Made by a program: the position numbers and the translations under genes. DNA of 64,000 nt, from positions 799,501 to 863,500 of the forward strand of contig NC_013889.1 of NCBI RefSeq assembly GCF_000025545.1, written 5' to 3'. Shown here piece by piece: positions 11,100 through 15,620 of this stretch. Each line of letters begins with the position of its first letter. Position 1 is the stretch's first letter. The stretch comes from Thioalkalivibrio sp. K90mix (GTDB lineage: Bacteria; Pseudomonadota; Gammaproteobacteria; Ectothiorhodospirales; Ectothiorhodospiraceae). The notes under the pieces were generated by a model. It did no database searches. It was not told the DNA's origin and saw only the letters and a list, made by a program, of their open reading frames with translations.

Positions 11100-11375
11100 A
11101 TGTTTGAAATCGCCATCATTGTGGCCAATGTCCTGCTCAGCATCTCCCTGGTGCTGGGGTTCTGGCGTCTCTATCTCGGGCCGACGCTGCCCGATCGCGT
11201 GGTGGCGCTGGAGCTGATCGCATCCCTTACCATCGGCTTTATCGCGGTGTACGTGATCGCCAGTGGCCGGACCCCGTTTATCGACGTGGCGATGGTGCTG
11301 GCCCTGACCGCCTTCCTCGCCGCGGTCGGATTTGCCCGCTATCTCGAGAAAGGGGGGCATCGCGAAGATGATTGA
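11100..11375 (+). CDS. mrpF: Mrp antiporter subunit F
   Basis: A 91-residue three-helix subunit with the LYLGPTLPDRVVALE motif that marks MnhF. Two in-frame ATGs lie at 11094 and 11100. I chose the second because the CAGGGG ribosome-binding sequence at 11088-11093 abuts the first and is properly spaced only for the second. Its stop codon overlaps the start of mrpG by eight bases. Confidence 0.9.
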   Translation: MFEIAIIVANVLLSISLVLGFWRLYLGPTLPDRVVALELIASLTIGFIAVYVIASGRTPFIDVAMVLALTAFLAAVGFARYLEKGGHREDD

Positions 11376-11763
11376 GCTACTGACGGCGTTGTTCCTGGTA
11401 TCCGGTGCCGCGTTCATGGTGGTAGCCGCGCTGGGGCTCGTCCGCATGCCGGACCTGCCGATGCGCCTGCACGCGACGACCAAGGCAGGTGTGCTCGGGG
11501 CTGGTCTGATGATGGTGGGGGTCGCCGTCTATTTCGGTGACGGAGGCGTGACTACCCGAGCCGTGGCGGTGATCGGCTTTCTGCTGCTGACGGCCCCGGT
11601 GGCCGCGCATGCGATTGGCCGCGCCGGCTACTTCGTGGGGGTGCCATTGTGGGAGCACACGCGCGCGGACGAGTTGAAGGGCCGCTATGACGACAAGACC
11701 CACACGCTGGCCTCGCCCCCGGAGATGAACGAGTCCTCGTCGGACGACGAGCCCCGGCGCTGA
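11368..11763 (+). CDS. mrpG: Mrp antiporter subunit G
   Basis: A 131-residue membrane protein and the last gene of the mrp operon. The LVRMPDLPMRLHATTKAGVLG segment after the first helix is the MnhG signature. After three helices there is an acidic tail (NESSSDDEP). The ATG at 11368 lies inside the end of mrpF, with AGGGGGG upstream. The hairpin that follows, at 11804-11824, has its T-run on the other strand and so serves the convergent gene rather than this one. Confidence 0.92.
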   Translation: MIELLTALFLVSGAAFMVVAALGLVRMPDLPMRLHATTKAGVLGAGLMMVGVAVYFGDGGVTTRAVAVIGFLLLTAPVAAHAIGRAGYFVGVPLWEHTRADELKGRYDDKTHTLASPPEMNESSSDDEPRR

Positions 11764-11883: not shown

Positions 11884-12336
11884 TCAGGCGGCCTGATGCT
11901 TCTCTTTCGCCTCGCGGGCGGCCCTGGCGTCTTCCGGCGAATAGGCCGCTCCGGACCAGAGCATCTCGTAGGCAATCTCTTCGTTACCGTTTTCACACAG
12001 CTCCAGGACGTCCTGGAACAGCGGCTGGAACGTCTCGCTGCGGTGCGAGGCCTCGTGTTCCTCGAAGCTGCGCCAGAAGGTGATGATCAACGCTTCCTTG
12101 TCCTTCATCGGGCTCTCCACGGCCTGACCGATGGTCGAGCCTTCGTTGGAGACGGCGCCGGAGTTCAGTGCGACGAAACCGCCGACGAAGCCGGTGTCCG
12201 AGTGGTAGGTCTTCACGTTTTCGCACAGCATGGCGACACGTTCCTGCAGGTCGTCGATGCTGTATTCCGGCTTCAGGATCACGCGGTTGATGGTTACGAC
12301 GCCGTCGGCCGGGAAGTTGTGGATCAGCTGGCTCAT
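11884..12336 (-). CDS. Single-domain protein resembling half of sulfur oxygenase reductase
   Basis: A 150-residue soluble protein with the look of a dimeric alpha+beta-barrel (antibiotic monooxygenase-like) fold. From memory, residues 49-53 (GFVGG) and 86-98 (TFWRSFEEHEASH) line up with sulfur oxygenase reductase (SOR) of Acidianus. The HxxxH pair (His94, His98) and Glu120 in EIAYE match the SOR iron ligands His86, His90 and Glu114. Cys38 and Cys114 lie near, not exactly at, the SOR catalytic cysteine positions. SOR itself is about 310 residues with two such halves, so this would be a one-domain relative. A strong AAAGGAGG precedes the ATG. It is divergent from the ArsR-rhodanese gene in a sulfur island, which supports a sulfur or persulfide role. 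It could also be a general ABM-domain protein; activity is unproven. Confidence 0.65.
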   Translation of the reverse strand: MSQLIHNFPADGVVTINRVILKPEYSIDDLQERVAMLCENVKTYHSDTGFVGGFVALNSGAVSNEGSTIGQAVESPMKDKEALIITFWRSFEEHEASHRSETFQPLFQDVLELCENGNEEIAYEMLWSGAAYSPEDARAAREAKEKHQAA

Positions 12337-12392: not shown

Positions 12393-12439
12393 AGTTAGTT
12401 ACTAACTGCTGATGAATAGTTCCTGAGTAATTTAGTCAA
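12393..12439 (-). promoter_or_regulatory. Promoter and candidate operator of the SOR-like gene
   Basis: Reading the minus strand, TTGACT (12439-12434) and TTCATC (12416-12411) are spaced by 17 bases, a plausible -35/-10 pair. Immediately downstream is a perfect inverted repeat AGTTAGT-T-ACTAACT (12393-12407), placed where it would cover the transcription start. The same half-sequence (GTTAG/CTAAC) recurs at the persulfide dioxygenase promoter. The ArsR-rhodanese protein encoded next door is the obvious candidate ligand. Confidence 0.55.
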
Positions 12440-12539
12440 GAATAAATTCGGCGCAACAAACCCTCGTTCCCCCTTGGGCCTTGCACGACAGGGCAGGGCG
12501 GTCTACCTTGCCGGCTTCCCCATGATTTGGAATGCGTTC

Positions 12540-13208
12540 ATGTCCGATCGCGAACTGAAAGATTTGCTCTATGACCAGGTCGCCCGGATCGGCAAGGCGG
12601 CATCCAGCCCGAAGCGGCTGGAGCTGATCGAGATCCTGGTGCAGGGCGAGAAGAGTGTCGACCAGCTCGCAACGGACGCCCAGATCAGTGTCAAACTGGC
12701 CAGTGCCCACCTGAAAGAGCTGCGTCAGGCGCATCTGGTGGAGTCCCGGCGCGAGGGACGCCGCATCTTCTACCGTCTGGCGGACCCGCGCGTCGCGGAT
12801 TTCTGGGTGGTGTTGCGGGAGCTGGCGGAGAGCCGGTTGCTGGAGTTGCAGGGCGCCGTCCGCGACATGGCGGCCAGTGCCGGTGACATGGTCCCGCTGA
12901 GTGGTCAGGAGCTACTGGAGCAGGCACGCAGGGGCGAGGTCATTGTCCTCGATGTTCGCCCGGACACCGAGTATGCCACTGCGCATCTGCCACATGCCCG
13001 ATCCATCCCGCTGCGCGAGTTGAAGCAGCGTCTGGACGAACTGGCCCCGGATGTCCCGGTTGTTGCCTACTGCCGGGGACCGTACTGCCTGATGGCGCGC
13101 GACGCCGTGACCATCCTGGGCGAGCATGGTTTCCGCGCGATCCGTCTCGATGAAGGCGTGGCGGAATGGCGCCACCAGGGCCTCCCCCTGGAACAAGGGA
13201 AACACTAG
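12540..13208 (+). CDS. ArsR-family regulator fused to a rhodanese domain
   Basis: A 222-residue cytoplasmic regulator. Residues about 10-100 are an ArsR winged helix (SPKRLELIEIL, helix-turn-helix around VDQLATDAQIS to LKELRQAHLVESRREGRR). Residues about 120-218 are a rhodanese domain with LDVRPDTEY and the active-site loop YCRGPYCLMA (Cys178, Cys183). The ArsR half has no cysteine, unlike BigR/SqrR-type persulfide sensors, so any sulfur sensing would fall to the rhodanese loop. I prefer the ATG at 12540; 12522 is an alternative. It is divergent from the SOR-like gene and lies upstream of persulfide dioxygenase. Its last codons (GGG AAA CAC TAG) come from a REP-like palindrome. Confidence 0.9.
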   Translation: MSDRELKDLLYDQVARIGKAASSPKRLELIEILVQGEKSVDQLATDAQISVKLASAHLKELRQAHLVESRREGRRIFYRLADPRVADFWVVLRELAESRLLELQGAVRDMAASAGDMVPLSGQELLEQARRGEVIVLDVRPDTEYATAHLPHARSIPLRELKQRLDELAPDVPVVAYCRGPYCLMARDAVTILGEHGFRAIRLDEGVAEWRHQGLPLEQGKH

Positions 13209-13542: not shown

Positions 13543-14277
13543 ATGTTTTTCCGTCAGTTAGCGACTACAGAATCGTCGTTGTCCTATCTCTTTGGGTGCG
13601 GATCGCTCGGCAAGGCGATCGCTGTGGACGTGGTCGAGGGTGACCAGGAGTGGTTCCTGCAGCAGGCACGCCAGACCGGTGTCGAGATCACGCACGTAAT
13701 CGATACCCATGTCCACGCCGATCACTATTCCGGTGGGCGCGATCTGGCGGAGCGGGCTGGCGCGAAGTATTGCCTCCATGAATCGGATCGCGAGGTGGTC
13801 GAGTTCGATTTTTATCCCCTGCGCGACGGCGACCGGATCGAGGCCGGTAACGTCGAAGTGGAGGTCATCCACACGCCGGGACATACGGAGGACAGCGTGT
13901 GTCTGCTGGTGACCGACAGGCGTCGTGGCGAGCAGCCGTGGTTCATTCTGACGGGTGACACGCTGTTTATCGGGAGCGTCGGGCGCCCCGATCTGGCCGG
14001 GCAGGAACGCGAGATGGCGGGGCGCCTCTACGACAGCCTGCATCAGCGGCTGCTGGGGCTGCCGGATGAAGTCGAGATCTATCCGGGCCACTACGCCGGA
14101 AGCGCCTGTGGCGCGGGTCTGTCGGGCAAGCCATCCTCCACCCTGGGTTTCGAGAAACGCTATAACCCGGGGCTTGCGTTCAGCGATCGCGATGCGTTTG
14201 CCGATTTCCTGACGAGTGACATCCCTCCGCGACCGGCGGATATGGATGCCTATGTAGCCGCAAACATCGCGGCCTGA
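13543..14277 (+). CDS. Persulfide dioxygenase-type MBL-fold protein (ETHE1/Blh)
   Basis: A 244-residue metallo-beta-lactamase-fold enzyme of the ETHE1 family, which oxidises glutathione persulfide to sulfite with a mononuclear iron. Visible motifs are THVHADH (residues 55-61), the metal histidine in HTPGHTEDS (His114), the aspartate in LTGDTLFIGSVGR (Asp139) and the histidine in YPGHYAGSACG (His183). ETHE1 and bacterial Blh/PDO proteins share this set. It follows an ArsR-rhodanese regulator and a palindromic operator, a typical sulfide-responsive arrangement, with CAGGAGG before the start. It is 23 bases upstream of the MFS transporter and probably cotranscribed. Confidence 0.88.
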   Translation: MFFRQLATTESSLSYLFGCGSLGKAIAVDVVEGDQEWFLQQARQTGVEITHVIDTHVHADHYSGGRDLAERAGAKYCLHESDREVVEFDFYPLRDGDRIEAGNVEVEVIHTPGHTEDSVCLLVTDRRRGEQPWFILTGDTLFIGSVGRPDLAGQEREMAGRLYDSLHQRLLGLPDEVEIYPGHYAGSACGAGLSGKPSSTLGFEKRYNPGLAFSDRDAFADFLTSDIPPRPADMDAYVAANIAA

Positions 14278-14300: not shown

Positions 14301-15620
14301 ATGAGCGATCCATCCAGGGCCGCGCAGGCCTATGAACACCTGACCCACGGGATTCGCGAGAACCTCGGGCAGTTCGGGCAGCAACTGGTCCAGGTCTTCT
14401 TCGTCGGCCTGACGATCGGGATGATGCGCACCGTCATCCCGGCGCTGGCCGAGGACGAGTTCGGCGTGGCCGAGGGCTCGTTCATGCTGCTGACCGCGTT
14501 CGTCGTCGCGTTCGGCGTGGTCAAGGGCGTGCTCAATTTCGTGGCCGGGCGACTGTCCGAACGCATGGGGCGCAAGACCGTGCTGATGCTCGGCTGGATG
14601 GCGGCCATCCCGATCCCGTTCATGATCCTCTACGCCCCGTCCTGGAGCTGGATCGTGGCCGCGACCATCCTGCTGGGCGTGAATCAGGGGCTGGCCTGGT
14701 CGATGACGCAGACCGCGAAGATGGACATCACCCGGGGCGACGAGCGCGGCTTCACGATGGGCATGAACGAGTTCTCCGGCTATGTCGGGGTGGCCGTTGC
14801 CGGGATCGTGACCGGCTATATGGCCGCGGCCCTTGGGCCGCGCATGGGGGTGTTCGTGTTCGGCGTCGTCGTCATCGCGATCGCGATCCTGATGACCGCG
14901 CTGTGGGTGCGCGAGACCCTGGACTGGGCCAGGGCCGAGGGGGCACGGCATGCCGCCGGGCAATCCACCGGGCCGCAGCCGCGTTATCCCAAGTCGATCG
15001 CCGATACGCCGACCACCTGGGAGGTGTTCACGCTGATGTCCTGGCGGGACCGGCGCATGGCCGCGTTCAGTCAGGCGGGCCTGGTGGAGAAGTTCGTCGA
15101 TGCCCTGGTCTGGGTGTTCTATCCGGTATTCCTGTATCAGCAGGGGCTGAGCCTGGCCGCGATCGGCTGGGTCGTGGGGATCTACGGCTTTGTCTGGGGT
15201 GGCTCGCAGTTCGCCACCGGCAAGCTCTCCGACCATGTGGGGCGGTTGCAGCCCATCGTCTGGGGCATGTGGATCTGTGGCGCGGGCGTGGCCCTGACGC
15301 TGCTCGGCGAGGGGGTCATCTGGTGGTCGTTCGCGGCGGCCGTAACCGGCTTTGGCATGGCCCTGCTGTATCCCAATCTGAGCGCGGCGGTGGCCGATAT
15401 TGCCCATCCAAACTGGCGCGGTTCGGCGATCGGGACCTACCGCTTCTGGCGGGACCTGGGCTACGGCATCGGTGCACTGGCCCTGGGGGTCGTCGCCCAC
15501 ATCGGCGGTTCGGTGACCTGGGGCTTCTGGTTCGTGGCCATCGCCATGTTCCTGTCCGGTGCGCTGGTACTGCTGTGGGGGGAGGAGACCCACCCGCGAC
15601 TCAATCCCGAGAAGGATTAG
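14301..15620 (+). CDS. Major facilitator superfamily transporter
   Basis: A 439-residue, roughly 12-helix membrane transporter. The loop between helices 2 and 3 carries the MFS motif A form GRLSERMGRKT, and the central cytoplasmic loop (about residues 205-240) is polar and Pro-rich. The substrate cannot be read from sequence. Cotranscription with the persulfide dioxygenase and the ArsR-rhodanese regulator suggests movement of a sulfur compound such as sulfite or thiosulfate, or of another product of persulfide oxidation; this is inference from context only. The frame shows no disruption. Confidence 0.85.
   Translation: MSDPSRAAQAYEHLTHGIRENLGQFGQQLVQVFFVGLTIGMMRTVIPALAEDEFGVAEGSFMLLTAFVVAFGVVKGVLNFVAGRLSERMGRKTVLMLGWMAAIPIPFMILYAPSWSWIVAATILLGVNQGLAWSMTQTAKMDITRGDERGFTMGMNEFSGYVGVAVAGIVTGYMAAALGPRMGVFVFGVVVIAIAILMTALWVRETLDWARAEGARHAAGQSTGPQPRYPKSIADTPTTWEVFTLMSWRDRRMAAFSQAGLVEKFVDALVWVFYPVFLYQQGLSLAAIGWVVGIYGFVWGGSQFATGKLSDHVGRLQPIVWGMWICGAGVALTLLGEGVIWWSFAAAVTGFGMALLYPNLSAAVADIAHPNWRGSAIGTYRFWRDLGYGIGALALGVVAHIGGSVTWGFWFVAIAMFLSGALVLLWGEETHPRLNPEKD

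Follow-up and report, generated by a model that had tools for sequence, protein, structure and literature searches.

Sulfur oxygenase reductase (SOR) is a protein of ~310 residues made of two ferredoxin-like halves, with a facial triad around its iron; it assembles as a 24-mer shell and disproportionates sulfur in dependence on O2. According to the accessible text of PMC7398979, activity is undetectable in the SOR variants H86A, H90A, E114A and C31A and is about tenfold lower in C101A. In Thioalkalivibrio, the oxidation of sulfur to sulfite is ascribed to dsr or hdr proteins in the available part of PMC6382920. The sulfur auxiliary genes known in phages are, in the available part of PMC8190135, dsrA, dsrC/tusE, soxC, soxD and soxYZ.

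The 64,000-nucleotide stretch of Thioalkalivibrio DNA that was analysed here (the window) contains a gene whose 150-residue product, called half-SOR below, had been singled out in a preliminary description as a one-domain relative of SOR. Each element named there, His94 and His98 (in HEASH), Glu120 (in EIAYE), Cys38, Cys114, GFVGG and TFW, is indeed present in the open reading frame, and the protein is about half the size of SOR, with one domain instead of two. The features of the locus are as follows.

11332-11763, Mnh-type antiporter gene of the PhaG/MnhG family, convergent with the half-SOR gene
11884-12336, minus strand, half-SOR gene (150 aa; Cys38, His94, His98 and Glu120 invariant in the family)
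12393-12407, perfect inverted repeat AGTTAG-TTA-CTAACT, with the IscR-like element on one side and the start codon on the other
12422-12439, minus strand, IscR-box-like element TTGACTAAATTACTCAGG of the half-SOR promoter
12540-13208, plus strand, ArsR-rhodanese fusion regulator, divergent from half-SOR (ATG taken as the start; the open reading frame opens with TTG at 12474)
13543-14277, plus strand, MBL-fold protein of the glyoxalase II / persulfide dioxygenase group
14301-15620, plus strand, MFS transporter, found near half-SOR in 13 of 80 loci

The start codon of half-SOR is ATG and is preceded by AAAGGAGG. The suggestion that the gene lies in a sulfide-response island is plausible, since the second gene beyond it codes for the MBL-fold protein. 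In a PDB search this protein has the persulfide dioxygenase ETHE1 (4chl, E 3e-16) among its matches, while the top match is the lactamase-rhodanese protein 3tp9 (E 4e-45).

Of 40 near genomes 25 have a relative of half-SOR, as do 33 of the 47 genomes of the order; a single query found relatives in nine of 398 genomes sampled over the phylum. Each of these counts includes the own genome. A profile search retrieved them from 78 of 369 genomes of the class, 72 of these being strong matches. In a scan of genome contigs, 521 of 554 pattern-matched stretches encode a relative; the best 80 of the 521 were kept and examined. These best 80 represent Thioalkalivibrio, Thiobacillus, Sedimenticola, Thiohalophilus, Halochromatium, Hydrogenophilales, Acidiferrobacterales and further Gamma- and Betaproteobacteria, and one record bears the title Rhizobium sp.; the closest named relatives among them are from Thioalkalivibrio (97% identity). 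Plasmid records gave no half-SOR match. Because relatives are present in 33/47 genomes of the order and 521/554 stretches, and the triad and Cys38 in all 151 distinct family proteins, we conclude that the half-SOR gene is real, beyond chance, and strongly conserved. No name for the family was found in the open-access literature searched, as far as its texts were accessible. Alvin_1688 of A. vinosum, an "antibiotic biosynthesis monooxygenase" that on pyrite declines together with the dsr genes (accessible part of PMC11267869), was considered as a member; its belonging could not be established.

The tree divides the family into two clades with support 100/100, the bootstrap being unsettled. Clade 1 (~150 aa) includes the window protein; clade 2 (~130 aa) is 32-40% identical to it and contains L034, despite the g1 label of this locus in the tree. 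Both clades are co-resident in some genomes (G483, G561, G666, G735 and G759), and clade 1 is retained in genomes of 1.0-1.1 Mb (G576, G683 and G774). A partial second copy, comprising the C-terminal 34 residues and 68% identical to the query, is located 3' of an intact half-SOR gene in G255 (L027/L035).

True SORs exceed the SOR cut-off in 12 of the 47 genomes of the order. Some Thioalkalivibrio relatives that have half-SOR are among them, and therefore half-SOR is not merely a replacement of SOR. The SOR types diverge within the order (L045-L054; 51-55% and 33% identity to L045), and some genomes carry two SORs. Searched with the SOR family, the own genome gave nothing at E≤0.001; at E≤1 half-SOR was the sole match, with the SORs of related genomes being detected there.

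Single-sequence searches left half-SOR below every curated cut-off: it scored 15.6 bits with Pfam SOR (PF07682; cut-off 25, E 0.0077), 17.7 bits with NCBIfam SOR (NF047630; cut-off 400, E 0.0014) and 13.7 bits with the ABM family (PF03992; cut-off 23.1), and matched SOR in the PDB at E 0.37. A family profile made of 21 rows picked for spread placed SORs on top of the PDB matches (6m35, E 2.6e-4). Triosephosphate isomerases came next (E 0.02), and no ABM structure was among the 30 matches listed up to E 10. The clade-2 profile alone reached SOR only at E 0.23.

Profile-profile comparison by hhalign used nine of the ten returned SOR loci (L050 was excluded). Against these SORs, which make a narrow profile because all nine are from one bacterial order, the probability was 91.7% for the 21 family proteins and 71.4% for the clade-2 alignment (19 bacterial and four phage rows). 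When the SOR halves were taken separately, the 21 proteins matched the N-half with a probability of 94.2% (E 1.1e-7) and the C-half with 0.1%; the N-half was matched at 70.0% by clade 1 alone and at 84.1% by clade 2 alone. Three ABM families from related genomes gave 16.5, 0.2 and 0.4%; these sets hold 15 proteins from 19 of 30 returned loci, L246 and L248 giving no protein and L249 and L250 being excluded. In the controls, the SOR N-half scored 1.5% with the SOR C-half and 2.0, 0.6 and 4.9% with the ABM sets. Kinship to the SOR C-half through a GFxGG...GS stretch, to which weak second PDB matches had pointed, was dropped at the hhalign probability of 0.1%. Thus, on the profile evidence, half-SOR is homologous to the iron-bearing N-terminal half of SOR, and the proposed relation to SOR over a generic ABM protein holds at the level of sequence. 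Since it stays under the Pfam and NCBIfam SOR cut-offs and is without the second domain, we call it a one-domain relative and not a SOR.

SOR residues His86, His90, Glu114 and Cys31 aligned with half-SOR His94, His98, Glu120 and Cys38 in three MAFFT modes. In all three modes eleven positions were identical in half-SOR (P0001) and all nine SORs, namely Cys38, Gly49, Phe50, Thr86, Trp88, His94, Glu95, His98, Cys114, Glu120 and Tyr123, and spacing equates columns among them with SOR Cys31, His86, His90, Cys101 and Glu114. Alignment by hhalign likewise matched Cys38 and both histidines with SOR but did not put Glu120 on Glu114, so that this last equivalence comes from MAFFT. Eight of the residues (Cys38, Thr86, Trp88, His94, Glu95, His98, Glu120 and Tyr123) are invariant in 151/151 distinct family proteins, of which 147 have Cys114 and 143 have Gly49. 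The invariance of the triad and Cys38 reaches down to ~32-38% identity with the window protein.

The SOR-type iron triad is thus retained throughout the family, and on this count the preliminary description is not refuted. The same description held that a cysteine is lacking at the position of SOR C31; this was mistaken, since Cys38 does align with Cys31, and extra residues sit between the cysteine and the GF motif. Cys114, the other cysteine named there, is not invariant.

An AlphaFold2 model of half-SOR based on 36 sequences (pLDDT 88, pTM 0.76) predicts a ferredoxin-like alpha+beta fold with the strand/helix order E-H-E-E-H-H-E-H. In this model His94 and His98 are on helix 91-98, Glu120 on strand 119-124 and Cys38 on helix 27-45. 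Structure searches were led by ABM-type single-domain proteins, with FasU at E 4.8e-7 (Foldseek) and SnoaB at Z 14.1. SOR 2cb2 came at rank 39 (Z 11.2, 123 residues, rmsd 2.3) and was aligned through residues 125-301, which constitute the SOR C-half; SOR was absent from the first 50 Foldseek matches, and a viral structure library gave no match at E≤0.001. Because ABM proteins fit best and SOR is matched by its C-half, the fold alone is no proof of kinship to the iron-bearing half. A SOR rather than ABM relationship is therefore favoured by sequence and disfavoured by fold, the nearest structures being of the ABM type.

Across the class, half-SOR strongly co-occurs with dissimilatory sulfur oxidation. 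SoxB is present in 65 of the 72 genomes with half-SOR against 85 of the 297 without (Fisher 2e-22), DsrA in 61/72 against 56/297 (Fisher 9e-26), and either of the two in 70/72 against 93/297 (Fisher 5e-27); these P values are overstated, because related genomes are not independent. Weak matches are excluded from the counts, namely six to half-SOR (E above 1e-4) and 12 to SoxB (E above 1e-80); control genomes gave such weak SoxB matches too. SoxB was kept in 150 genomes, compared with 148 by the search cut-off, and the weak SoxB of G761 was scored as absent. The own genome has two copies of SoxB and no DsrA at E≤1e-40.

We searched the 80 loci for a fixed operon around half-SOR within 1.2 kb, and none was found. 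Neighbours were counted by tblastn (longest-ORF gene calls included antisense artefacts), and flanks exceeded 1.5 kb on both sides in 68 of the 80 loci, some loci being short contigs. Mainly non-sulfur genes were seen, such as MutL (21/80) and an S24 peptidase-like gene (23/80). The latter (L076:7494-7844 and 22 further loci) is immediately upstream of half-SOR, mostly in records with Thiobacillus or Hydrogenophilales titles. An ATP sulfurylase gene (Sat) begins 263-495 bases downstream of half-SOR in five loci, and two loci have AprB at a distance of at most 2 kb, the gene after it being taken as AprA. At the clade-2 loci L180 and L181, half-SOR stands behind FixG-like and FixH genes. The ArsR-rhodanese gene is adjacent in 13/80 loci, every one titled Thioalkalivibrio, and is missing from some loci of that title (L069 and L105, for example). 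The link to this regulator drawn in the preliminary description is accordingly local and does not extend to the family in general.

In the half-SOR promoter, the sequence TTGACTWWWTTACTCRGG has one exact match in the own genome, at 12422-12439; otherwise there are two matches, each with three mismatches. Similar elements precede many clade-1 half-SOR genes. They were scored against the type-1 IscR consensus. At ≤6 of 25 mismatches, the element was found in 58/80 clade-1 promoters, in 18/29 iscR promoters (from 30 loci of related genomes) and in 2/219 control genes, some of which may not be real gene starts since they were drawn from longest-ORF calls. It was present in 0/20 clade-2 and 1/14 phage promoters and in 0-1% of shuffles. 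One iscR promoter (L266) carries a core identical to that of the half-SOR element. The element also resembles the Rhodobacter IscR-bound motif GACTATTTCTGTCGG given in the accessible part of PMC6956336. In the genus to which the window belongs, the iscR boxes have a variant form, and a different Rrf2 regulator is therefore possible. According to the available text of PMC12594620, oxidation of the IscR cluster by O2 releases the protein from type-1 sites in E. coli, and an O2-using enzyme would fit such a release. The inverted repeat at 12393-12407 is possibly an operator of the divergent ArsR-rhodanese regulator; the pattern AGTTAG-N1..6-CTAACT was found in 0/80 upstream regions of relatives.

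IMG/VR scans retrieved 14 and then 35 viral contigs (the 14 among them) with a clade-2-like half-SOR. On five contigs that were examined (L164, L167, L170, L171 and L175), half-SOR is located among T4-like phage genes, i.e., gp59, gp32, tail tube, baseplate hub, tape measure or ribonucleotide reductase. Each of the 29 phage rows in the tree groups with clade 2, and the topology requires the phage label to change at least twice. A search of 30 of the 35 viral records revealed a DsrC-family gene on seven; it ends 125-325 bases upstream of half-SOR in 6/34 phage loci and 752 and 992 bases upstream in two more. The one phage DsrC-family protein read whole has a single cysteine, as the penultimate residue, and may, judged from this, be TusE-like. 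Phage DsrC proteins without a conserved cysteine likely act as TusE, according to the accessible part of PMC8190135. Two phage half-SOR copies compared with PHROG gave nothing except one match to a kinase family at E 0.07, and for one copy a search of 50,697 phage records was negative. A DUF6552 gene (L164:3246-3545) immediately precedes the phage DsrC-family gene, and the phage genes beside half-SOR on L170 code for a radical SAM/SPASM protein, an asparagine-synthase-like protein and a protein that weakly matches 2OG-Fe(II) oxygenases.

The reading that we put forward, with about even confidence, is that half-SOR is a one-domain SOR relative and probably a homodimeric enzyme with non-heme iron whose substrate is sulfane sulfur bound to cysteine. 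Two subunits would together form one alpha+beta barrel, in the manner of ABM proteins, and each would bind one non-heme iron via His94, His98 and Glu120. Cys38 would accept sulfane sulfur from GSSH, from a carrier such as TusA/DsrC or from polysulfide; the bound sulfur would be oxygenated to sulfite, which would be handed to Soe or Apr/Sat. Expression of clade-1 half-SOR would rise upon O2 oxidation of the IscR cluster. In favour of this explanation are the profile match with the SOR N-half, the invariant triad and Cys38 together with the inactivity of the corresponding SOR variants, the co-occurrence with SoxB and DsrA, the Sat and AprB genes near some loci, the DsrC-family genes on phage contigs and the clade-1 promoter element. 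Several observations count against it: single sequences score below the SOR cut-offs and the clade-2 profile is weak, hhalign does not place Glu120 on Glu114, the SOR set covers nine proteins of one order, the model fits ABM structures and the SOR C-half best, the IscR-like element is absent in clade 2 and nearly so in phages, the gene neighbours are mostly non-sulfur genes, the phage DsrC-family protein read whole has one cysteine, and purple sulfur bacteria, e.g., Halochromatium, grow without O2. That half-SOR occurs in bacteria able to live without O2 would suit a protein that carries sulfane sulfur or binds persulfide as a partner of DsrC/TusE, TusA or Hdr proteins and has a structural or sensing iron/zinc site, as would the invariant Cys38 and the closely upstream DsrC-family gene of six phage loci. 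A complete catalytic SOR triad plus Trp88, Glu95 and Tyr123 exceeds the needs of a carrier, however, and we consider such a role rather unlikely.

The promoter data invite another interpretation, in which half-SOR serves iron or Fe-S homeostasis under the control of IscR, engaged for example in iron handling or in repairing clusters damaged by sulfide, O2 or NO, and tracks sulfur oxidisers for their abundant Fe-S protein. While the frequent IscR-box-like element of clade-1 loci and iscR promoters, including the one with an identical core, agrees with this, the element is in none of the clade-2 promoters and the co-occurrence, as counted for these two systems in the class, is with Sox and Dsr, and we judge it decidedly unlikely. 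It would be very improbable, in our estimate, that half-SOR is an ordinary ABM-type protein with an organic substrate whose SOR likeness is convergence in a common fold: SnoaB and FasU are its top structural matches, but the profile is specific to the SOR N-half versus three ABM families, the triad and cysteine are invariant, and the association with SoxB and DsrA is strong. Returning to the oxygenase reading, we would extend it tentatively, and with more doubt than conviction, to a wider proposal, namely that half-SOR may be an unrecognised one-domain homodimeric sulfur oxygenase of many Sox/Dsr oxidisers and T4-like phages and the single-domain ancestor-form of SOR, SOR having arisen when this form was duplicated and one of the iron sites was lost.

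The conserved SOR-type iron site, kept even in 1.0-1.1 Mb genomes, suggests an extra O2-dependent route or a missing sulfur-handling partner, and would indicate that a step of biological sulfur oxidation has been overlooked. Half-SOR also offers a testable model of SOR evolution and is a candidate new sulfur gene of phages. Like the phage sulfur auxiliary genes of PMC8190135, it is found on myovirus-like contigs, some with a DsrC-family gene; unlike them, it is not among the genes named in the accessible part of that paper, where "sulfur oxygenase" has zero occurrences. With ABM and other dimeric alpha+beta barrel proteins (PF03992), half-SOR shares size and fold, and it differs from them in falling below the curated cut-off and in its low profile probability with the three ABM sets. 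Persulfide dioxygenase (ETHE1, MBL fold) resembles it in that GSSH is of the proposed substrate class of half-SOR, and differs in fold and metal site. The closest likeness in sequence is to SOR (PF07682, NF047630; 2cb2, 6m35), with the N-half of which half-SOR aligns and shares the TxW-x5-HE-x2-H and GF motifs; where SOR has two ferredoxin-like halves and a Cys101/Cys104 pair, half-SOR has one domain of 150 aa and, at the place of the pair, one cysteine, Cys114.
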